Below, in pieces: positions 13,987-55,482 of a DNA stretch of 64,000 bases. This stretch comes from Actinokineospora diospyrosa (lineage in GTDB: Bacteria; Actinomycetota; Actinomycetes; Mycobacteriales; Pseudonocardiaceae), in contig NZ_JAMTCO010000014.1 of the NCBI RefSeq assembly GCF_024171925.1, positions 84,058 to 148,057 on the forward strand, in the 5' to 3' direction. Position 1 is the first letter of the stretch. Each line of letters starts with the position of its first letter. Position numbers and translations under genes: made by a program. The notes beneath the pieces are model-generated. The model was not told the origin of the DNA. It searched no databases and worked only from the letters and a program-made list of their open reading frames with translations.

Positions 13987-14115
13987 ACCCGTTCCAGCGA
14001 CAGAAGTTATCCACATGTGGATCTTCGCTGCCCCGCTTCCAAGATCCACTGTCGGCGGGGCCTAGTAGACTGGCCCTGGGGCCGCCCCCCGGAGAGGGTG
14101 GGGGCTGCGCCCCCG
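13987..14115 (+). repeat. Dispersed 130-bp element, copy A, with DnaA box
   Basis: These 129 bases are about 90% identical by eye to the reverse complement of 25781-25911. A stretch of about 50 bases near its right end is essentially identical. It contains a perfect DnaA-box 9-mer TTATCCACA at 14007-14015 and a GC-rich hairpin (GGGGGC-TGC-GCCCCC) at its right end. It lies in the gap between the thiolase and the YjbR-family gene. No protein-coding frame is credible here. No transposase or target duplication was seen. Confidence 0.8.
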
Positions 14116-18146: not shown

Positions 18147-18511
18147 TACGGGGCACTCGCTGGTGCCATCCCGGCCTCCGTCAGGTCTGCCCCAGCCCAC
18201 CTCCGGCCGACCAGCGGACACTCGGACCCGGCGGTGCCACCCGAGCCCCCGCTAGGTCCGCCCCAGCCCACAGTGCCAGCCCGTGGACAGTCGGACCCAG
18301 CGGTGCCAACTGGCCTTCCGTCAGGTCCGCCACAGCCCACCTGATCAGCACCTGGACACTCGGACCCCTGCGGTGCCAACCCGCCCCCCGTCAGGTCCGC
18401 CCTAACCCACCTTCCCAGCGCCTGGACAGTCGGAACGGCCGGTGCCATCTCAGCCCGTTCTCGGCTGTCCTGCCAGCCCAGCGCCTGGACAGTCGGAGTC
18501 GCTGGTGCCAG
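18147..18511 (+). repeat. 69-bp tandem repeat array (locus 1)
   Basis: Five to six diverged units, recognisable by GGACACTCGG or GGACAGTCGG at 18216, 18285, 18354, 18424 and 18487. The spacings are 69, 69, 70 and 63 bp. Each unit continues GCGGTGCCA and later GTCAGGTCCGCC. The array runs up to the palindromic element at 18514. A related array is at 43185-43631. No coding frame is credible. Confidence 0.85.
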
Positions 18512-18513
18512 GT

Positions 18514-18658
18514 GCTCGATGGGGTGGACCTGTTTTGTGTGGGGGGACGGCACCCGTAGCGTTTCCGCGCGGCAGGGCCAGTCTTTTGGGCCCCTGCTTT
18601 GCGGTTCTGCGTCGGGTGTCGTAGGGGCCCCGCACAAAACAGGTCCACCGCATCGAGC
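18514..18658. repeat. 145-bp imperfect palindrome, copy 1
   Basis: The outer arms (about 31 bp, starting GCTCGATGGGGTGGACCTG) match each other as inverted repeats with only a few mismatches. The inner arms pair less perfectly around CAGGGCC/GGCCCCTG. As RNA or cruciform it would form one long hairpin. Close copies are at 43632-43775 (same orientation) and 26242-26384 (opposite orientation). No transposase gene is nearby and no target duplication was seen. Confidence 0.85.
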
Positions 18659-18683
18659 TTTTCACCAAAATCGCGGATCGGGC

Positions 18684-18768
18684 GCCGAGGTCGCCGCTAG
18701 GCGACGAGGCCGTCCGATCCGGTGGCCGAGCTCGCCGCCAGGCGACGAGGCCGTCCACCGGAGCCGAA
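18684..18768. repeat. Two-unit 41-bp direct repeat
   Basis: GCCGAG(G/C)TCGCCGC(T/C)AGGCGA occurs at 18684 and 18725, 41 bp apart. Each unit contains a TCGCC/GGCGA mini-hairpin and continues CGAGGCCGTCC. Related sequence with a single unit lies near 43800-43845 in the second repeat locus. Confidence 0.65.
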
Positions 18769-18832
18769 GGCGGAGGCCCGAATCCCTTGCGACGCACTCC
18801 CAACCCCGGCCTACGCCAAGATCATCTACCGC

Positions 18833-18904
18833 AAGAGCCCCCGATATACAGCCTACCGAGCAGCACCGACAAATCGGACACCTCAACCAACCGCCTGTGG
18901 ATAA
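18833..18904 (+). repeat. 28-bp core plus DnaA box module, copy 1
   Basis: The core AAGAGCCCCCGATATACAGC, extending to CTACCGAG (18833-18860), is followed 63 bases after its start by TGTGGATAA at 18896-18904. That 9-mer is a perfect DnaA box (TTATCCACA on the minus strand). The same arrangement recurs three times at 43296-44227. This copy has no second box 19 bp later. Confidence 0.75.
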
Positions 18905-19125
18905 CTCCCACGGCAAGCCCCGCCAGCCCCCACCACCAGCGACCGCGCAGCGCCACCCAAGCGCCCACCGCAGGACCAGGGTCCGGGGATACCCCGAAGG
19001 CCAGTCCGCTTCCTCAGGGGAGATCCATGAGGTGATCCCTGATTTCTGCTGGGTCCGGTGGAACCGCCCGCACGCACCTGACACGATGGAACCCACAGAT
19101 GGGACCCCCTCCGCCAGCCGGGGGT

Positions 19126-20920: not shown

Positions 20921-20948
20921 CAGCCCCCGAATCGAGCCTAGGGGGCTG
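20921..20948 (+). terminator. Hairpin after the psp operon
   Basis: CAGCCCCC (20921-20928) pairs with GGGGGCTG (20941-20948) around a 12-base loop, about 70 bases after the pspM stop. It has no T-tract. The surrounding 324-bp gap (20849-21172) holds nothing else except a degenerate DnaA-box pair. Confidence 0.45.
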
Positions 20949-25612: not shown

Positions 25613-25780
25613 CGGCCCAACTTCGGGCGTTGCGCCCTGCCGAGGCAGTGCGGTGGGCTCGATTTGCGCGGGGACCCTGCAACTCCTCTTAGCGCGCGTC
25701 CGCAACGCAGGGGCCCGCAAGCATGGCCAACTCCCCCCCCGCCCCCGCAAAGCATGGCCAGGCTCCCCACGCGCGCGGGT

Positions 25781-25911
25781 CGGGGGCGCAGCCCCCACCC
25801 TCTCCGGGGGGCGGCCCCAGGGCCAGTCTACTGGGCACCACCGACAGTGGATCTTGAAAGAGGGGGCGTGAAGATCTACATGTGGATAACTTTTGTCGCT
25901 GGAACGGGTGA
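25781..25911 (-). repeat. Dispersed 130-bp element, copy B, with DnaA box
   Basis: This is the inverted counterpart of 13987-14115, about 90% identical by eye. The perfect DnaA box reads TGTGGATAA on the plus strand at 25881-25889. It lies in the 880-bp gap 25613-26495, which has no credible gene. Confidence 0.8.
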
Positions 25912-26104: not shown

Positions 26105-26241
26105 GACGTGGTCGGGGGGCGTTTCGGCGGTGCGGCAGGCGGAGTGAGACGTGTGTCCACGCCGGAGCTGGGAGTGCGGTCGGCTCGATGGGGCCGAGCA
26201 TCGACGGGGTCCGGTCCGTGCCGGGGCTGGGAGTGCGGTTG

Positions 26242-26384
26242 GCTCGATGGGGCGAACTTGTTTTGCGCGGGGCCCTACAACACCCGTGGCAGGTCCGCAA
26301 AGCAGGGGCCGAAAAGCATGGCCCTGCCGCGAGAAACGCTACGGGTGCCGTCCCCCCGCGCAAAACAAGTCCGCCCCATCGAGC
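26242..26384. repeat. 143-bp imperfect palindrome, copy 3 (inverted)
   Basis: GCTCGATGGGGCGAACTTG at the left end pairs with the matching right end (CAAGTCCGCCCCATCGAGC). Its reverse complement aligns with copies 1 and 2, so it is in the opposite orientation. Unlike them it has no 69-bp array or DnaA-box core beside it, showing that the palindrome is a separate unit. Confidence 0.8.
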
Positions 26385-26495
26385 AAGAACAGGAGGCGGG
26401 GTTGGTGGGGGTGGGGGCGGGACGTGAGAGGTGGGGGTGAGCACGGCCGGCCCATTGAGCAGGAACAGGAGTGGGGGATGGGGGGCGGGGGTGGG

Positions 26496-42517: not shown

Positions 42518-42967
42518 ATGGCGCTGCGGCAGGTGGACGAGGTAGCCGAGACCGAGGTGGCCGCCCGAGCCCTGGGCCTGGTCCTCACCAGGGCGAACAC
42601 GGACGTGTACCCGAAGGTGCCGCCGATGCAGCTGCGCGCGCTGCACTTCGTGGAGTCCCTGGAACCGGTCAACCTGACCCGGCTCACCGAGGAACTCGGC
42701 ACCATCCCGTCCTCCACCAGCCGCCTCTGCGACCGCCTCCAATCAGCAGGCCTCCTCGACCGCCGCCCGGCCACCACCGACCGCCGCGAGGTCGAGATAG
42801 TCCTAACCCTCCCCGGCCGAGAACTCCTAGACCGCCTCCGAGCCGCCCGCCGAGCCGACCTGGCCCAAGTCCTAGCCGCCATGCCACCGCAATCCCGAGC
42901 CGCCCTCCTCCACGGCCTCCGCGAATTCACCGCCGCCTCTCAACACCGCTCCCCAGTCACCACCTAG
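42518..42967 (+). CDS. MarR-family transcriptional regulator
   Basis: A 149-residue winged-helix regulator. The recognition region is VNLTRLTEELGTIPSSTSRLCDRLQSAGLLDRR, followed by the wing TDRREVEIVLTLPGRELLDRL. The target and ligand are unknown. Toward the 3' end, codons ending CCTA and CGA become frequent, unlike the strongly G/C-ending first half, suggesting a weaker constraint or a different history. It borders the large repeat-filled gap. Confidence 0.9.
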   Translation: MALRQVDEVAETEVAARALGLVLTRANTDVYPKVPPMQLRALHFVESLEPVNLTRLTEELGTIPSSTSRLCDRLQSAGLLDRRPATTDRREVEIVLTLPGRELLDRLRAARRADLAQVLAAMPPQSRAALLHGLREFTAASQHRSPVTT

Positions 42968-43184: not shown

Positions 43185-43631
43185 GAGTCTCTGGTGCCAT
43201 CCCACCCTCCGCCAGGTCCGCCCCAACCCACCTAGCCGACCCCTGGACACTCGAAAGCCGCTGGGTTCTGCTTGCCCCGCAAGATCATCTGCCACAAGAG
43301 CCCCCGATATACAGCCTAACGAGGACCCTGACAGAACCGGGCCAGCGACCAATGCCTGTGGACAACAGAACACGTTGTGGACAACCGCCCACCAGCCCAG
43401 CCCCTGAACACTCAAAAGCCAACGTGTCAGCCCAACCCTGTCAGATCCGCCCCAACCCACCTGATCAGCCATTGGACACTCGGACCCGGCGGTGCCAACC
43501 CAACTGCCGTCAGGTCCGCCCCAACCCACAGTGCCAACCACTGGACAGTCGGACCCGTCGGTGCCATCCCAGCCCGCCCTCGTCAGCCCACTTTCCCAGC
43601 GCCTGGACAGTCGGAGTCGCTGGTGCCAGGT
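43185..43631 (+). repeat. 69-bp tandem repeat array (locus 2), interrupted
   Basis: Units are marked by GGACACTCG or GGACAGTCGG at 43245, 43474, 43543 and 43605. The last two intervals are 69 and 62 bp. The segment from about 43265 to 43400 is a core plus DnaA-box module that appears to interrupt the array. As in locus 1, the last unit starts 27 bp before the palindrome. Confidence 0.8.
43296..43384 (+). repeat. Core plus DnaA-box pair module, copy 2
   Basis: Core AAGAGCCCCCGATATACAGC to CTAACGAG (43296-43323) is followed by two perfect TGTGGACAA boxes (TTGTCCACA on the minus strand) at 43357-43365 and 43376-43384. The first box starts 61 bases after the core start; the two boxes start 19 bp apart. 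Confidence 0.8.
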
Positions 43632-43775
43632 GCTCGATGGGGTGGACCTGTTTTGTGTGGGGGAGCGGCACCCGTAGCGTTTCCGCGCGGCAGGGCCTGC
43701 TTTTGGGCCCCTGCTTTGCGGTTCTGCGTCGGGTGTCGTAGGGGCCCCGCGCAAAACAGGTCCACCGCATCGAGC
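43632..43775. repeat. 144-bp imperfect palindrome, copy 2
   Basis: It has the same orientation and nearly the same sequence as copy 1 (18514-18658), with the outer arms GCTCGATGGGGTGGACCTG and its inverse. After it, sequence related to 18659-18860 continues, so the whole block was duplicated together. Confidence 0.85.
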
Positions 43776-43929
43776 AAAGCTCGAAAGTCGCGGATCGGGC
43801 CCGATGTTGCCGCCAGGCAACGAGGCGTCCGATCCCGGGTCGCGATGCCGAAGGCGAGCCGACCCCGAAAGCCACCGAACCCCTTCCCCCGCACTCCCAA
43901 CCACGGCCTACGCCAAGATCAATCTGATC

Positions 43930-44020
43930 GAAAGCCCCCAAATACACAGCTTACCGTTCAGCGCCGACACAACGGGAGCGGCGAACGGAGCCTGTGGACA
44001 GCCAGAACCGTTGTGGACAA
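43930..44020 (+). repeat. Core plus DnaA-box pair module, copy 3 (diverged)
   Basis: A diverged core (GAAAGCCCCCAAATACACAG) starts at 43930. A one-mismatch box TGTGGACAG follows at 43993 (63 bases after the core start) and a perfect box TGTGGACAA at 44012, 19 bp later. Confidence 0.75.
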
Positions 44021-44060
44021 CCAAATCACCCACAACCAGCCCCGCATGATCAACTAAACC

Positions 44061-44227
44061 AAGAGCCCCCGATATACAGCCTACCGAGAACGCCCGACAA
44101 ACCGGAACCAGCGAACAACGCCCTGTGGGCAACCGAACCCGTTGTGGACAACCGAACGCGTTGTGGACAACCGAACGCGTTGTGGACAACTGAAACCGTT
44201 GTGGACAACAGAAGACGTTGTGGACAA
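44061..44227 (+). repeat. Core plus six-box DnaA array, copy 4
   Basis: The core at 44061-44088 is identical to that of locus 1. Boxes start at 44124 (TGTGGGCAA, one mismatch), then perfect TGTGGACAA at 44143, 44162, 44181, 44200 and 44219, every one exactly 19 bp after the last. All five perfect boxes are flanked as TTGTGGACAA, and the first four as GTTGTGGACAAC. The array ends 10 bases before the tgpA stop codon. Confidence 0.9.
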
Positions 44228-44237
44228 GCAGGGAGAA

Positions 44238-46631
44238 CTACTCCCCCCGTCCCTTCTTCCGAGGCGCCACAACCGATCGCGGTAGCAATCGTCCCCGCCA
44301 ATCCAGCGGCGACGATTTCCGCATCCCTGATACCACCTCATCGAACGCCCGTGCCAGTTCCGGATCCCGCTCCGAGCGTCCTCCATACCAAGACCGCTCC
44401 ACCGAGTTCACCACCGTCCGCAGGGCCTGCTTGCTCCCCTCATCCAGACTGTGCTCCTTGGCCAACCGCCGAGCCGCAGTCCGGACCGTGTCCGTGTCGG
44501 ACGTCTCTGCCCCGCGGTCCCAAGACTCCGCCATAAGCTCTGTCCACGCCGCAGTAGCGGCATCGTCCGGACCAGCCATGGCAGTCCTTCGCTGACGGCG
44601 ATACAAGTCGCGTACGGCAGCAGGGATTGCGGATAGCGCAAGAACCACGAACAACCCGCTGAGCCACCAAGAGAGCAGCGACAGCAAGAACACTCCAGCC
44701 AAGAATCCGGCTGTAAGAGCGAACGTGCGCGTGGATGAGATGCGGCGGGTGGTGGTGAGACTTACGAGCAGCACGGCGATAAGACCTAGGCCGATCCCTG
44801 CCCATGCCTGCCAGGGCCAACCCTGGTCGCCTTGGGCTCGTTGGCCTAGGTTGCCAGCTTGCTGGTCTGGGTCTGGGCGGTCGCTTCGGGGGGCGGCCGT
44901 TGTGGAGGCTGAGTTGCTTGGCAGCTTCTCGGTGCTCACGGTGGTTGACGGGCCGGTGCTGGGGTCGGCGCTGACGTAGGGGGGTTCGTAGGTGCGGCCG
45001 TCGGCCAGGGGGGTGGGGTCGAAGGTGACCCAGCCCTGGCCGGGGAAGAAGATCTCGACCCACGCGTGGGCGTCCTGGGTGGTGATGGAGCGGTAGTCAC
45101 CGGACAGGAAGCCCGCCGTGTAGCCGATGGCGACGCGGGAGGGGAGGCCCGCTGCTCGAGCGAGGATGGCCATCGCGGAGGCGTATTGCTCGCAGAAGCC
45201 GGTCTTGGAGTTGAACAGGAACTCCTTGAGCGCGTCCTCGTCGCTGGTCAGTGCCGTCTGGGTTTTGTACTGGAAGCCGTTGGACGTCTCGAAGTGCTTC
45301 TTGAGGGCCAGCGCCTTGTCGAACGCCGACGCCTGGCCGTTGGTGATCAGCTTCGCCAGGGTCACGACCTCCGGATCGATGCCGTCGGCCACCAGGTAGC
45401 CCGGGTCGATCTCGTCGTAGTCGCCCTCCGCCTGCCGCAACTGGTCGGCGGTCGGCTCGCTCAGGTCGGCGTCCTCGATGTAGCGGTCGAGCTTGCGCAT
45501 GCTGTGCGAGAACACCATGCCGCCCGCCTGGTCGTAGAACATGCCGTCGGGCAGGTCGCGCAGGTTGCGGGGGTTGCCGTAGATCGGCGCCCACAGGTCC
45601 TCGTAGTTGACCGGCTCGATCTCGATCCGGGTCTCCTGGCCGCCACCCCGGTCACCCGGCGCGGGCGGCATGCCGAGACCGGCCGGGACATCGCTGGGCA
45701 GGGCGTCGGCGGCGACCCAGCCGCCGTTGCGGTCGAAGCGGGGGAGGGTGATCGCGCGCAGGTAGCGGCTCTGGTTGCCCAGGCCGCGCACCCGCAGCAA
45801 CTCCACGTTGTTGCCCTGGTCGAGCATGCCGCGCAGCTTCGTGAACGGCTTCAACGCCAGACCACCGCCGCTGCCACCGCCGTTGCCGCCGCCCGGGAGG
45901 CTGCCGACCGTGCCGATGCCGGTGATCAGCGCACCCGCGAGCAGGCCGAGCGCCAGCGCCGAGGACACCATCACGACCGGCGACCCGACACCGGTCCCGG
46001 TGCTGGGCAGCGCGGGCCGGTTGCGCCACAACCGGTGCCGGTGCGTCCCGTCCACGGCCAGCAGCACCGCGAACGAACTCGCGCCCAGCACGAACGACCA
46101 CCAGGGCAGCAGCTCGTCGGCGAGCGAGGCGGGCACCGCGTAGACGCACAGCAGCACCAGACCGCACGCCGCCGGGGCGCCCGCAGCGACCGCCAAGGTG
46201 TCGACCAGCACCGCGACCAGCCCGATCGCGATTACTACCAGGCACAGCACCGGTCTCGTCTCGGCCACCGGCGGCACACCCGTGCGCACCGCCTCCACCG
46301 AGTCGCCCAGCACCGCGCCGAGATCGCTCAACGCCTCCGGGCCGGGGAAGATCCCCAGCACCCCGCTGTCGGTGAACAACGCGACCAGCAACAGCAGCAG
46401 CGAGAACAGCTGCGCGATGCCCACCACCAGCGTCGGCGCCCGCATCGCGCGCAGGCCGAGGCCCACCGCGGCCACCACGATCACCGCGATCCCGGCGTGC
46501 CCCAGCCAGCGCGCCCCCGAGATCACCCCGGAGAGCGCGGTCGAGGCGCACAACGTCGTCAGCGCGGCGACCACCGGGGTGACCGTGGTCGACCACTGCG
46601 CCTGCGCCGTCGGCACTGGTTGCTCGCTCAT
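44238..46631 (-). CDS. TgpA-type transmembrane transglutaminase-like protein
   Basis: A 797-residue protein. The N-terminal 240 residues have six or more membrane segments (DUF3488-type), then a large extracytoplasmic region. The transglutaminase triad is visible in TGFCEQYASAMAILARAAGLPSRVAIGY (Cys) and DAHAWVEIFFPGQGWVTFDPTP (His, Asp). A Ser/Thr/Pro linker, two further membrane segments and a cytoplasmic tail (about 680-797) follow. The biochemical role in actinobacteria is not settled. The ATG at 46631 overlaps the DUF58 stop, completing a moxR-DUF58-tgpA operon. The DnaA-box array abuts its 3' end. Confidence 0.92.
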   Translation of the reverse strand: MSEQPVPTAQAQWSTTVTPVVAALTTLCASTALSGVISGARWLGHAGIAVIVVAAVGLGLRAMRAPTLVVGIAQLFSLLLLLVALFTDSGVLGIFPGPEALSDLGAVLGDSVEAVRTGVPPVAETRPVLCLVVIAIGLVAVLVDTLAVAAGAPAACGLVLLCVYAVPASLADELLPWWSFVLGASSFAVLLAVDGTHRHRLWRNRPALPSTGTGVGSPVVMVSSALALGLLAGALITGIGTVGSLPGGGNGGGSGGGLALKPFTKLRGMLDQGNNVELLRVRGLGNQSRYLRAITLPRFDRNGGWVAADALPSDVPAGLGMPPAPGDRGGGQETRIEIEPVNYEDLWAPIYGNPRNLRDLPDGMFYDQAGGMVFSHSMRKLDRYIEDADLSEPTADQLRQAEGDYDEIDPGYLVADGIDPEVVTLAKLITNGQASAFDKALALKKHFETSNGFQYKTQTALTSDEDALKEFLFNSKTGFCEQYASAMAILARAAGLPSRVAIGYTAGFLSGDYRSITTQDAHAWVEIFFPGQGWVTFDPTPLADGRTYEPPYVSADPSTGPSTTVSTEKLPSNSASTTAAPRSDRPDPDQQAGNLGQRAQGDQGWPWQAWAGIGLGLIAVLLVSLTTTRRISSTRTFALTAGFLAGVFLLSLLSWWLSGLFVVLALSAIPAAVRDLYRRQRRTAMAGPDDAATAAWTELMAESWDRGAETSDTDTVRTAARRLAKEHSLDEGSKQALRTVVNSVERSWYGGRSERDPELARAFDEVVSGMRKSSPLDWRGRLLPRSVVAPRKKGRGE

Positions 46632-47893
46632 GTCCCGGCTCCCGCGATCATCGTGTCCCCGCGCCGGTTGCCCGTTCGGCAGACCCCGGCCCAGACCTGG
46701 GTCATCGGCGCGTCCGGCCGGGCGATCGTGACGCCCCAGCCCGCCCCGCTGAGCAGCGTCGCCGCCGCGGTCGGGTCCACCTCCGGGCCGTCGCCCGCGC
46801 CCCACGCCGGGGTGTCGAGCAGCACCGCGAGGCTGCGCGTGCCCCGGGTGCGGTAGCGGATGAGCTGGCTGACCGACTCCGGCGTCGCCGCGCCCAGGAT
46901 CGCGATCAGCTCCTGGCCGTGACCGGGGTCGGCCGGGCAGGAGATGTCGCGCTGGTGCACCGGCTGCAGCGCGGCCAGCGCGTCGAGCACCGCGTCGTCG
47001 CTGTGCGCGCCGTCGCCCGCGTCGCTGACCAGGACGCCGCCGGTCTCGGTGACCAGCCGGATCTGGTGGCCGTGCCGGTGCAGGTGCACGCAGACGCTCG
47101 CCGCGAAGGACACCGCCCACTCCAGGCTCGACCCGGCGCCGGTGCCGCGGTGCCCGCCGACCCGGCGGTCCAGCAGCACCGTCGTGCCGCCGCGCCAGGG
47201 GCTCTCCTCGACCCGGACCATCATCTCGTCGCGCTTGGCGGTCGAGCGCCAGTGCACCTTCCGCAGGTCATCGCCCTGCCGGTAGGGCCGCACCACCGCG
47301 TCGTCCTCGCCCTGGCCCGCGTTGAGCCGCACCGAGCCGTCGTCACCCGAGCCGAGGCCGGACCCGCCGGGTACCCCGGACAACCGCACCACCCTGGGCA
47401 CCACGACCAGCCGCGACGACCCAGCCAAGTCGCGCTCGAACTCGGCCAGGCCGAACGGGTCGGTGACCGTCGCCTTCAACGGCCCGATCTGCTGGATCCC
47501 GCGCAACATCGGCTGCAGCGTGTAACGCAGCTGCGTCCCGGTGTTGCGGGGGAGGTGCTCTATGAGGAACCGCGGCTTCCCGCCGAGCGCGTAAGGCACG
47601 CCGTCAGAGACAAGAAGGCCGACCGTAGGAAGCCTGCCCGTGCTCCGGACAGACAGCACTACCTCGGTGCGACCCCCCACCGGCACCCGCACAGGAGATA
47701 TGTGTCGCTGGGCGCTTAGCCCTACCCGCGAAACCGCGGTCAACACGCACACGAGCAGCGGTAACGCCACGACGAACACGGACACGCGCATCAGGTCGCG
47801 CTCGTTGAGCACGATCGAGCACAGCGCGGCGGCGAGCCCGGCCGCGATCAGGCACCGTCCACGGGTGGTCAGACCCGACAGGGCTCCGCGCAT
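46628..47893 (-). CDS. DUF58 domain protein
   Basis: A 421-residue protein with two N-terminal membrane segments (RCLIAAGLAAALCSIVL and VSVFVVALPLLVCVL). The DUF58 core has the signature VRPYRQGDDLRKVHWRSTAKRDEMMVRVEE, followed by a von Willebrand A-like fold. In the MoxR-DUF58-transglutaminase system it is thought to be a partner of the AAA ATPase at the membrane. The ATG at 47893 follows moxR by 10 bases; the stop overlaps tgpA. Confidence 0.92.
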   Translation of the reverse strand: MRGALSGLTTRGRCLIAAGLAAALCSIVLNERDLMRVSVFVVALPLLVCVLTAVSRVGLSAQRHISPVRVPVGGRTEVVLSVRSTGRLPTVGLLVSDGVPYALGGKPRFLIEHLPRNTGTQLRYTLQPMLRGIQQIGPLKATVTDPFGLAEFERDLAGSSRLVVVPRVVRLSGVPGGSGLGSGDDGSVRLNAGQGEDDAVVRPYRQGDDLRKVHWRSTAKRDEMMVRVEESPWRGGTTVLLDRRVGGHRGTGAGSSLEWAVSFAASVCVHLHRHGHQIRLVTETGGVLVSDAGDGAHSDDAVLDALAALQPVHQRDISCPADPGHGQELIAILGAATPESVSQLIRYRTRGTRSLAVLLDTPAWGAGDGPEVDPTAAATLLSGAGWGVTIARPDAPMTQVWAGVCRTGNRRGDTMIAGAGT

Positions 47894-52912: not shown

Positions 52913-55482
52913 TGCCCGCCCGCCGCTCGGCGACCGCGAGTCCGGAACCCCCCCGGACCAGGCACCGCCGAGCCGGGCGACCTGACTCCGCGTACCCGCC
53001 CGACCCACACAGCGCTGCCACCCCCCGCAGCGCCGCTGTTCCGAGCCCCACCCCAGCCGCCCTAACCGGCCGCGTGTTCGCGCCCATCGAGCCGGACACC
53101 GCGCGCCCCACCCGATCCAACGGCACCATGCCAGCCAATCCCAACTCGACCGGCAGCGACCAGACCGCTAGCCCCTGCAACGGTGCCGCCACCGAAATCG
53201 CTGCTGCCGCAAGCACCATGGCCAGCTACACCTGGCTGGCCACTCCTGGCCGGACCGCCAGCCCCCGACCCGCCAACACACACAGTGCCGGACCCGACAG
53301 CCGCGAAGACGCCGACACGAGAATCGACCGCGTGGCCGCCGCGGGCTTCGCGGTGGGCAGCACCCGGGAGGCTGCCGCCCCTGTCCGCGTCGGTCGTAAC
53401 TCGATCGCGAGCCCGCGTCGCGTCACCCGCCGCATCGGCGTGCACGACACCGGATCCGTCGGTCGTGAAGCCCCCGACACGGGAGCTGACCGCACGGCCG
53501 TCGCGGCGGGTAACACCCAGGTGGCTGTCACCTCTGGCTGGGTCGGCCGTAACTGGTTCGCGAGCCCGCGTCGCGCCACCCGCCGCGCCGGTACGCACGG
53601 CGCCGGATCCGTTAGCCGTGAAGTCCCCGGTACGAGTGCTGATCGCGTGGCCGCCGTGGGTTTCGCGGTGGGCAGCACGCGGATGTCTGTCGCCTCTGGC
53701 CGGGTTGGCTGTAACTGGTTCGCGTGCCCGCGTCGCGCCATCCGCAGCCTTGGCGTATTTAGCACCGCGCCCGTCAGCTGTGGGGCCCCTGGTACGAGAG
53801 TTGACCGCGTGGCCGCCGTGGGCTTTGCGGTGGGCGGCACTCGGGTGGCTGTCGCCTCTGGCTGGGTCGGCCGTAGCTGGTTCGCGTGCCCGCGTCGCGC
53901 CACCCGCCGCGCCGGTACGCATGGCGCCGGATCCGTCAGCCGAGAAGCCATCGCTACGAGAGCTGACTGCGTGGCCGCGGTGGGTAGCACGCGGGTGGCT
54001 GTCGCCTCTGGCTGCGTTGGTCGCGACTGGATCGTGAGCCCGCGTCGCGCCACCCGCCGCGTTGGCGTAGCTAGCACCGTGCCCGACGGTTGTGGAGCCG
54101 ACACGGGATCGGACGGCGTTTCGGTGGTGCGCGCTGCGATGGGCAGCACTGTGGTGGCTGGTCTTGCCACGGACCACGACCGGATCGCGAGTCCATGCCG
54201 CCCCCGCGCGGGAATGTGCGGCCTTGGAACGTCCGGCGCTGGTACTGACGGCGGCAAGGCCGCCAGTGCCGCAGTAGCGGGGAGCATTTGGGTGGTTGGC
54301 TCCGTCAGCAAAGACAGTGGCCGGGCCACGAGTCCTCGCTGCGGCACCCGGAGTTCCTGCGTGGGAGCGCACAGCACCGGGATGGCTAGTCGTGAGTGGA
54401 CTGTGAGCCCTCGTTGCGCTGGTGACGGCCTGGTGTCTGAATCTTGGCTGCAGTCGCCCCGCGTTTCCAGGTTCACTGTGTCTGGCCCGGCGACCACCGC
54501 TGAGGCCGTCGTGTCTCCTAGGGGTGGTGCGAGCAGGAGTAGCGCGGCCAAAGCCACGGTGTTCGGTAAGTCGAGCGCCTTCGATGGCATTGCGGTGACC
54601 AGCGGGCGGGCGCTGACCTGCCGAGCCGTGCTGCCGTGTGGGACGGCTGAAGTCCGGGCACTGCGGAGCTTGGGTGACGTGAGGCTTGGGTCGGTTGGCA
54701 AGCGGAGCATTCCTGGCGGCACCGCGATGGCTGGTAGGCGGGCTAGGTGTAGTTGGTTCACCGGCCGTTGGACTGCGCAGGTCGGCCAGGTCGGGGCTGT
54801 CCGTCTAACAGCGCCGCCCCATCGGGCTGTGCTGTCGCGTGGGGCGGCTGTAGTCCGGGTCCTGCGGGGTGTGGGTGCGGTGGGGCTCGGCGTTGGCAAG
54901 TGGAGCGTCGCTGGTGGCGCTGCGGTGACCCGTGGGCGGGCCAGATCTAGTTGGGCTACCGGTTGTTGGACTGGGGAGGTTGGCAGGGCCGGGGCGGTCC
55001 GCCTAACAGCGCCGACTCGTCGGGTTGTGCTGACTTGTGGGGCTGTGCTGTCGCGCGGGGCGGCTGTAGGCCGGGTATTGCGGGGTGTGGGTGCGGTGGG
55101 GGTTGGGTGGGTTGGCGAGTGGGGCGTTGCTGGTGTTGCGGTGGTTGGTGGGTGGGTTAGGTCTAGTTGGGGCACTGGCAGGTGGAGTGGGGGGATTGGC
55201 CAGGTTGAGGTGGTCGGCCGGGCTGTGTTGTCTGGGGGGACTGCTGTAGGTCGGGGCAGCGCGGGGGTTGGGCGTGGTGCGGTGGGGTTGGGGTGGGTTG
55301 GCAGGCGGAGCTCAGGGGTGTGGGGGTGCCTGGGTGGGACCAAGGCGGCAGGTGGGGGAGTGGGGGCTGGGCAGGCGGCGGTGAGTCGAGGTGGGGGCAT
55401 GGGGATGCGCAGGTACGGGGGCGGTCGGAGCGGGTTGGTGGTTTCGGCGGGACTAGTGGGAATGGTGGGCAGGGGACAGTGA
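52912..55482 (+). CDS. Unknown 856-residue repetitive frame between ftsL and ftsI
   Basis: The ATG at 52912 overlaps the ftsL stop (TGATG) and the stop at 55480-55482 overlaps the ftsI GTG (GTGA), so the frame is linked at both ends. The first half carries five repeats of about 50-54 residues containing (V/I)GRNWFASPRRATRR; the SPRR-coding sites start at 53411, 53564, 53726, 53888 and 54038, intervals 153, 162, 162 and 150 bp. The second half has repeats of 201, 216 and 180 bp. All seven intervals are multiples of three. However, G+C is 36/50 at each codon position in 53521-53670, unlike the strong third-position bias of real genes here. No known family, signal or membrane domain was recognised. 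It may be a translated spacer or noncoding. Confidence 0.4.
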   Translation: MPARRSATASPEPPRTRHRRAGRPDSAYPPDPHSAATPRSAAVPSPTPAALTGRVFAPIEPDTARPTRSNGTMPANPNSTGSDQTASPCNGAATEIAAAASTMASYTWLATPGRTASPRPANTHSAGPDSREDADTRIDRVAAAGFAVGSTREAAAPVRVGRNSIASPRRVTRRIGVHDTGSVGREAPDTGADRTAVAAGNTQVAVTSGWVGRNWFASPRRATRRAGTHGAGSVSREVPGTSADRVAAVGFAVGSTRMSVASGRVGCNWFACPRRAIRSLGVFSTAPVSCGAPGTRVDRVAAVGFAVGGTRVAVASGWVGRSWFACPRRATRRAGTHGAGSVSREAIATRADCVAAVGSTRVAVASGCVGRDWIVSPRRATRRVGVASTVPDGCGADTGSDGVSVVRAAMGSTVVAGLATDHDRIASPCRPRAGMCGLGTSGAGTDGGKAASAAVAGSIWVVGSVSKDSGRATSPRCGTRSSCVGAHSTGMASREWTVSPRCAGDGLVSESWLQSPRVSRFTVSGPATTAEAVVSPRGGASRSSAAKATVFGKSSAFDGIAVTSGRALTCRAVLPCGTAEVRALRSLGDVRLGSVGKRSIPGGTAMAGRRARCSWFTGRWTAQVGQVGAVRLTAPPHRAVLSRGAAVVRVLRGVGAVGLGVGKWSVAGGAAVTRGRARSSWATGCWTGEVGRAGAVRLTAPTRRVVLTCGAVLSRGAAVGRVLRGVGAVGVGWVGEWGVAGVAVVGGWVRSSWGTGRWSGGIGQVEVVGRAVLSGGTAVGRGSAGVGRGAVGLGWVGRRSSGVWGCLGGTKAAGGGVGAGQAAVSRGGGMGMRRYGGGRSGLVVSAGLVGMVGRGQ

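Follow-up and report, generated by a model that had tools for sequence, protein, structure and literature searches.

The putative DnaA-box array lies on the minus strand between two convergent genes of the window, as we call the whole 64,000-nucleotide stretch of DNA analysed. The array is three units in a composite repeat of about 1 kb, with one unit expanded. From left to right, the composite consists of unit B1, repeats of about 69 bp, a 146-bp palindrome, a conserved stretch, unit A and unit B. The features of the locus are as follows.

42518-42967, plus strand: MarR family gene (Pfam), left neighbour of the composite
43193..44227, minus strand: whole composite repeat, between convergent genes; its blocks are found again in this order at many sites of the examined sequence
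43274..43384, minus strand: unit B1; boxes 43376-43384 and 43357-43365; TAGGCT 43313-43318; RecA-NDp-like stretch with spacer 7, one base off register
43387..43628, no strand: imperfect tandem repeats of about 69 bp; further partial copy at 43193-43253
43631..43776, no strand: 146-bp palindrome; 32-nt arms, 91% complementary; folding z-score -9.57
43777..43915, minus strand: conserved stretch downstream of unit A, recurring in the own genome
43930..44020, minus strand: unit A; boxes 44012-44020 and 43993-44001 (CTGTCCACA); RecA-NDp-like GTGTCGGCG (2 mismatches) 43962-43970; 8 nt; TAAGCT 43948-43953
44061..44151, minus strand: unit B; boxes 44143-44151 and 44124-44132; RecA-NDp-like TTGTCGGGC (2 mismatches) 44092-44100; 8 nt; TAGGCT 44078-44083
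44143..44227, minus strand: array; boxes 44143, 44162, 44181, 44200 and 44219 in exact 19-bp steps; expanded outer box of unit B
43357, 43376, 44012, 44143, 44162, 44181, 44200 and 44219, minus strand: exact TTGTCCACA boxes
43993, minus strand: one-mismatch box CTGTCCACA
44124-44132, minus strand: one-mismatch box TTGCCCACA, inner box of unit B
44238-47120, minus strand: TgpA-type transglutaminase gene (Pfam), right neighbour of the composite

The box array and its composite setting

The ten boxes described by the initial annotation, eight exact TTGTCCACA and two one-mismatch boxes in 43357..44227, were all found in place on the minus strand in 19-bp steps. At up to one mismatch, TTGTCCACA had 20 matches in the window, compared with 6.7 expected. 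The largest count among 100 dinucleotide shuffles was 12 and none of the 100 reached 20, so the reported excess over chance is clear. Ten of the 20 matches are the boxes named above, and those at 14007, 18896, 21000 and 25881 come from further members of the element family. This short non-coding stretch carries high-affinity-type boxes beyond chance, as a DnaA-box cluster does. TTGTCCACA appears in a table of PMC4285127 as the high-affinity DnaA box of Streptomyces coelicolor and Mycobacterium tuberculosis, in agreement with its earlier naming as a Streptomyces-type DnaA box.

The period of the array is 19, and its six consecutive boxes follow each other in steps of exactly 19 bp. The array is the longest regular box run in the 1,015,643 bases of this genome that were examined, part of which were chosen because they bear boxes. 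Three other runs of at least three boxes (up to one mismatch) were present in these bases, with 3, 3 and 6 boxes, and the steps of the other six-box run were uneven (17-19). The initial annotation had seen no dnaA nearby, and the gene was located on a different contig. Its product has the usual ATPase and HTH domains, and the gap after dnaA holds one exact and four one-mismatch boxes.

The conserved stretch at 43777-43915 gave 44 matches at at least 40 places of the own genome when the best 40 of 226 candidates were scored. The idea of a structured RNA following unit A was rejected, with a z-score of -0.40 against shuffles for the minus-strand fold of 43777-43915 (plus strand, -2.72). A longer transposon sharing the palindrome arms was also rejected: with up to two mismatches and up to 3 kb between arms in the examined sequence of the genome, 20 of 21 arm pairs were 126-130 bp apart and one 660 bp, and 24 arms were partnerless. 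A second, partial composite was found in the window at 18157-18905, and the 146-bp palindrome occurs by itself at 26239-26385.

In the 0.3 to 3.6 kb seen on the far side of nine TgpA orthologues from the same genus, neither the composite nor a MarR gene was found. The composite at this site is thus lineage-specific, as far as seen, and it may sit at a rearrangement. Two of the nine orthologue loci have one exact box. At one of these two (L265), a one-mismatch box lies beside the exact box, near a different promoter-like sequence. Downstream of the TgpA orthologue in the relative G100, at L270 (about 1570-1720), there is a palindrome like the 146-bp one (CGATGGGGTG..CACCCCATCG), so the 146-bp palindrome may be an independent repeat.

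Direct 19-bp repeats would also be found in an iteron array at the origin of an integrated plasmid or other replicon. With MarR and TgpA-transglutaminase genes as neighbours, and with the same units at many other sites of the genome, such an origin is scarcely credible.

Architecture of the units and the RecA-NDp motif

Each unit, read on the minus strand, has the order box, 10 nt, box, about 38-41 nt and TANRCTG. As judged from sequence, the element consists of one or two DnaA-type boxes and, at this distance of about 38-41 nt, the -10-like hexamer TANRCTG; its other main form adds a GC-rich hairpin just after. In a set of 74 A/B units picked only by their -10/GGGG part, box 2 (the 10-mer TTGTCCACAG, at least 7 of 10 positions matching) ended 37-40 nt before the TA of TANRCTG in every case, and box 1 lay exactly 19 bp upstream of box 2 in 68. 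The two boxes averaged 1.89 and 1.76 bits of information per base, compared with 0.91 for the spacer and 0.72 for the sequence following box 2. The boxes are thus conserved, with about twice the information, while the neighbouring spacers drift.

The hairpin type has the form TAGRCTGG-nnn-CGGGGnCGCCCCCC..GGGTGGGGG and occurs twice in the window, at 14066 and 25830. The A/B type (TARRCTGTRTAT..GGGG) occurs in the window at 44083, 43953, 43318 and 18855, and a third kind of unit (TAGGCTCGATTCGGGGG) at 20940. The two hairpin-type units (14007-14110 and 25780-25890) are in opposite orientations about 11.8 kb apart, and have a single TTATCCACA, TAGACTGG and a GC hairpin. We infer that the hairpin form is the ancestral one. 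Elements with a -10 plus hairpin had an exact box within 90 nt in 39/39 cases in the window's genome and 62/62 in other genomes, counts in which many elements had been retrieved by box-containing queries.

The GC hairpin showed no covariation and no compensatory change across its 5 pairs, and a structured RNA at this position was rejected. A small ORF after the hairpin was rejected as well, because the frame, judged by eye, is not kept. The search of 2.1 kb of the window against Rfam 15 at E up to 5 returned a single match of 16.3 bits, compared with a gathering score of 45, so no known RNA family reached its gathering score; ten loci of relatives gave 0 matches.

RecA-NDp, described as tTGTCRgtg - 8 nt - TannnT (PMC5656591), is the PafBC-dependent, LexA/RecA-independent DNA-damage promoter of mycobacteria according to the parts of PMC5656591 and PMC6789036 consulted. 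Most units of the window's genome have the same exact register at up to two mismatches: with spacer 8, the motif was found in 81 of 110 A/B and 23 of 39 hairpin-type units. At any other spacer it was found in at most 11 (A/B) and 4 (hairpin-type) units. Within a 400-kb stretch chosen regardless of boxes, 10 of 15 A/B units had it. Units A and B of the window carry the motif in register with 2 mismatches each, and B1 is out of register. The copies belong to an amplified family and are not independent of one another; the counts for the window's genome therefore overstate the evidence for selection there.

The promoter motif tTGTCRgtg - 8 nt - TAnnnT is present in this genome; in other genomes, just 2 of 62 units had it at spacer 8. 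We call TANRCT a -10 mainly because its register matches this independently defined promoter. TTGACA at spacers 10-21 occurred in 1/39 hairpin-type units, 0/110 A/B units and 0/62 units of other genomes, and no consistent -35 was found outside the window's genome. Apart from being rare elsewhere, the motif differs from mycobacterial RecA-NDp promoters in that the units are preceded by DnaA-type boxes and followed by no evident gene. At L121 of the relative G115, two tandem in-register RecA-NDp motifs precede a DUF222 gene, which suggests that HNH-type genes of this sort may be regulated by DNA damage.

Copies in this genome and in relatives

Across the 8.11-Mb genome, TTGTCCACAAC occurs 236 times and the reversed control 0 times. 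The 19-bp two-box pattern TGTGGACA-N9-GTTGTGGACAA was found at 166 places (control 0), a count to which one array contributes several matches. The stricter TTGTGGACAAC-N8-TTGTGGACAA has 7 occurrences genome-wide, 4 of them within the window array. The 400-kb stretch chosen regardless of boxes, on another contig, contained 63 TT[AG]TCCACA boxes, compared with 1.5 expected under a first-order Markov model; 39 of the 63 have a recognisable family anchor at most 200 nt downstream, and the other 24 lie elsewhere. Hairpin-type units also form small arrays in this genome, at L206:8589-9415 and in L202, L209 and L210, with spacings of about 250 to 870 bp, often about 350. Some units of these arrays have TTATCCACATGTGGAT and the RecA-NDp motif in register.

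The initial annotation would have given up its reading if many other intergenic repeats had as many boxes, which is so in part: the two-box pattern is at 166 places, yet no other regular array in the bases examined is as long. Its proposal was a single dedicated DnaA-titration locus (datA/DARS-like). The length of the run is in favour of this, as are the eight exact boxes compared with one in the gap after dnaA. The array is, however, one of many copies, no composite was seen in the sequence covered beyond the nine same-genus TgpA orthologues, and dnaA is on a different contig; we regard a single titration locus as very improbable. The array is the locally multiplied end of a small promoter-like element, present at well over a hundred sites in this soil bacterium and also in relatives, and so looks like part of a genome-wide circuit, or of a repeat derived from one.

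The two-box pattern was present in 34 of 200 genomes of the family, the window's genome included, and the 33 others had 1-10 copies each. In nine other genomes of the same genus, 0-7 copies were found, compared with 166 here. Of 200 genomes of the order, 24 matched a profile of 15 hairpin-type units (E <=1e-4), with the best 19 candidates scored per genome and E-values that are rough. Twenty of these genomes belong to the same family; the four outside matched weakly (best E 2.6e-5 to 6.0e-5), as did two of the 20 inside. When the best 150 candidates were scored, 150/150 passed in the window's genome, 17 in G085 and 12 in G034.

A scan for the -10 and hairpin half in a collection of 84,980 species, from which the records of the window's genome were perhaps excluded, gave 30 stretches, all in Pseudonocardiaceae genera. 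They are distributed as follows.

Amycolatopsis: 13 stretches
Goodfellowiella: 10 stretches
Kutzneria: 5 stretches
Umezawaea: 1 stretch
Kibdelosporangium: 1 stretch

An exact box was present within 95 nt upstream in 30 of 30 stretches, compared with 0 of 100 control windows. The box pair was inverted in all 13 Amycolatopsis copies; the Goodfellowiella copies had a direct exact pair (6/10) or a single exact box (4/10). At six orthologous loci of the genus g16, which we take to be Amycolatopsis by the sequence of these loci, the downstream coding sequence aligns and the element, here with a direct pair, is nearly invariant, and the upstream sequence is far more diverged; a seventh sequence in this alignment is not orthologous.

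For 20 copies outside ORFs with both neighbours called by a GC-frame method, the neighbours were convergent (+-) in 11, ++ in 4, -- in 4 and -+ in 1. The right-hand gene is antisense to the promoter-like unit in 15 of the 20 (11 +-, 4 --), so no product is evident. A common neighbour gene family in relatives was rejected: of ten proteins, nine fell in unrelated families and one had no match. DUF222/HNH homing genes were also rejected as owner of the element, which is not their leader; the window's genome has no DUF222, and one relative showed a partial association. In G029, a unit lies within about 0.6 kb at 4 of 8 DUF222 loci. Seven of 10 DUF222 loci examined in G034 have one exact TTGTCCACA about 210 bp upstream of the domain, and the -10/hairpin was absent in the five inspected. 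The 50 DUF222 matches of G034, many of equal open-frame length, represent a family expansion.

The family could be a selfish, non-autonomous modular repeat (BIME/BOX/MITE-like), whose boxes would be sites at which the amplification machinery recognises or recombines the DNA, or would be carried along neutrally, DnaA playing no part. This agrees with the recurrence of the 43777-43915 stretch, with the modular order of tandem repeats and palindrome, with the jump in copy number from 0-7 in nine same-genus genomes to 166, and with the absence of composite and MarR gene in the 0.3 to 3.6 kb covered beyond the nine TgpA orthologues. A purely selfish repeat, however, would hardly persist as a simple form in five named genera and stay nearly invariant at six orthologous loci, or keep its boxes while the adjacent spacers drift. 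We consider this explanation unlikely, though worth keeping in view.

The position of the copies relative to dnaA was followed in two related genomes of one genus. G085 is one contig of 9.49 Mb with dnaA at 7.708-7.709 Mb, and the best 11 of its 17 matches lie between 6.33 and 8.17 Mb. The mean distance of these 11 to dnaA was 340 kb, compared with 2372 kb expected, and 0 of 200,000 uniform simulations equalled this. In G054, dnaA lies at C4:4.073-4.074 Mb and the best 7 of 10 matches at 3.71-4.66 Mb, i.e., -0.37 to +0.59 Mb from dnaA. Every listed copy of the two genomes (best 11 of 17 and best 7 of 10) is thus within 1.4 Mb of dnaA. The clustering may reflect conserved core genes near oriC, and the two genomes share ancestry within their genus. 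A sparse, even sampling of G085 (50 windows of 20 kb) contained 1 element, 1.38 Mb from dnaA. In the window's genome, where 135 listed of 150 scored matches were merged to 66 sites, 5 sites lay within 170 kb of dnaA compared with 2.3 expected (P 0.08), and clustering was not significant.

Candidate function and known systems

The comparisons document how the element is built and at what fixed distances, that it is dispersed and conserved in place (one locus, one genus) and that, in this genome, it carries the RecA-NDp motif in register. DnaA probably binds the boxes, given their identity, the A/G exchange at position 3 and the freedom of orientation: pairs that are direct in some copies and inverted in others suit a protein that reads each box alone. 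The boxes might instead be operators of another regulator, reading a direct or inverted repeat with 19-bp spacing and working with PafBC, and their likeness to DnaA boxes a coincidence; the initial annotation had also allowed for another binding protein. GTTGTGGACAAC is near-palindromic, the 19-bp spacing is very regular in the window's genome and the context is promoter-like, all of which would suit such a regulator. However, the exact 9-mer equals the DnaA box published in PMC4285127, in the part consulted, with an A/G exchange at position 3; inverted pairs in 13/13 Amycolatopsis and direct pairs in 6/10 Goodfellowiella copies fit a reader of single boxes; and the gap after dnaA contains boxes of the same kind. 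Another regulator is rather improbable.

With moderate confidence, we interpret the array as the upstream end, expanded here, of a single copy of a promoter-like non-coding element that is dispersed in Pseudonocardiaceae, has been amplified in this genome and may act as a DnaA-bound sink and transcript gate. DnaA binding would sequester the initiator and gate a short transcript starting after the -10. Each unit would be a small initiator sink joined to a promoter that fires according to DnaA and, in this species, PafBC. The transcript of a hairpin-type unit would enter the hairpin and be very short, or run antisense to the 3' end of the neighbouring gene; the hairpin may also terminate a convergent neighbour gene. 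The hairpin-less derivative (types A and B) would have been amplified in this lineage inside the modular repeat of about 1 kb, an amplification that looks like that of a non-autonomous repeat. The outer box of unit B would then have multiplied in 19-bp steps, most simply via slipped-strand or unequal recombination.

The suggestion of the initial annotation that this is a replication-control locus stands in part. Box identity, A/G interchange and the direct and inverted pairs fit DnaA, and the elements listed for two genomes from a single related genus are placed around dnaA; the idea of a single dedicated datA-like locus falls away, and no significant clustering was seen here. A role of the element in replication control is possible but doubtful. 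We speculate that a genome-wide network of DnaA-box promoter elements in Pseudonocardiaceae may couple initiator availability, and here a DNA-damage signal through PafBC, to short hairpin or antisense transcripts made in bursts, and would titrate DnaA at the same time. It would lie near the origin in one genus and be dispersed in this genome, where amplification to hundreds of boxes would demand a retuning of initiation; this whole scheme is an unlikely one. If DnaA binds the units, the hundreds of initiator-binding sites outside oriC in this genome would let the initiator-titration model be tested in a natural setting. The DNA-damage motif, being in register, would in that case tie the control of replication to the PafBC response within a single repeated cis-element.

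Like datA and DARS of Escherichia coli and other non-oriC clusters, the locus is a non-coding DnaA-box cluster outside oriC. The datA locus lies near oriC according to the part of PMC5742627 consulted, which the listed copies around dnaA in two genomes of one related genus resemble. However, datA is a single chromosomal locus, whereas the element consists of numerous two-box units, scattered over the genome, that have a -10-like motif and a hairpin. DnaA is known as a transcriptional activator or repressor (PMC8203912, in part), but, unlike at DnaA-regulated promoters, the promoter-like unit itself is the repeated element here. We infer that it may work like known non-oriC DnaA-box loci and DnaA-regulated promoters without being datA.

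In copy number and modularity, the element resembles interspersed mosaic repeats. With BIMEs and REPs, as far as described in the consulted part of PMC2817692, it shares more than 100 copies, a composite, modular build and species-specific amplification. Like these abundant repeats, the composite lies outside genes, a placement established for the window copy. The conserved part here is the box pair with the promoter-like motif and, unlike in REP/BIME, not a REP palindrome. A search of the open-access literature, with most subscription papers outside its scope, found no description of such an element. Long tandem repeats are also present in the window at 53348-54099 and 54628-55043, with periods of 162/324 and 198 bp.
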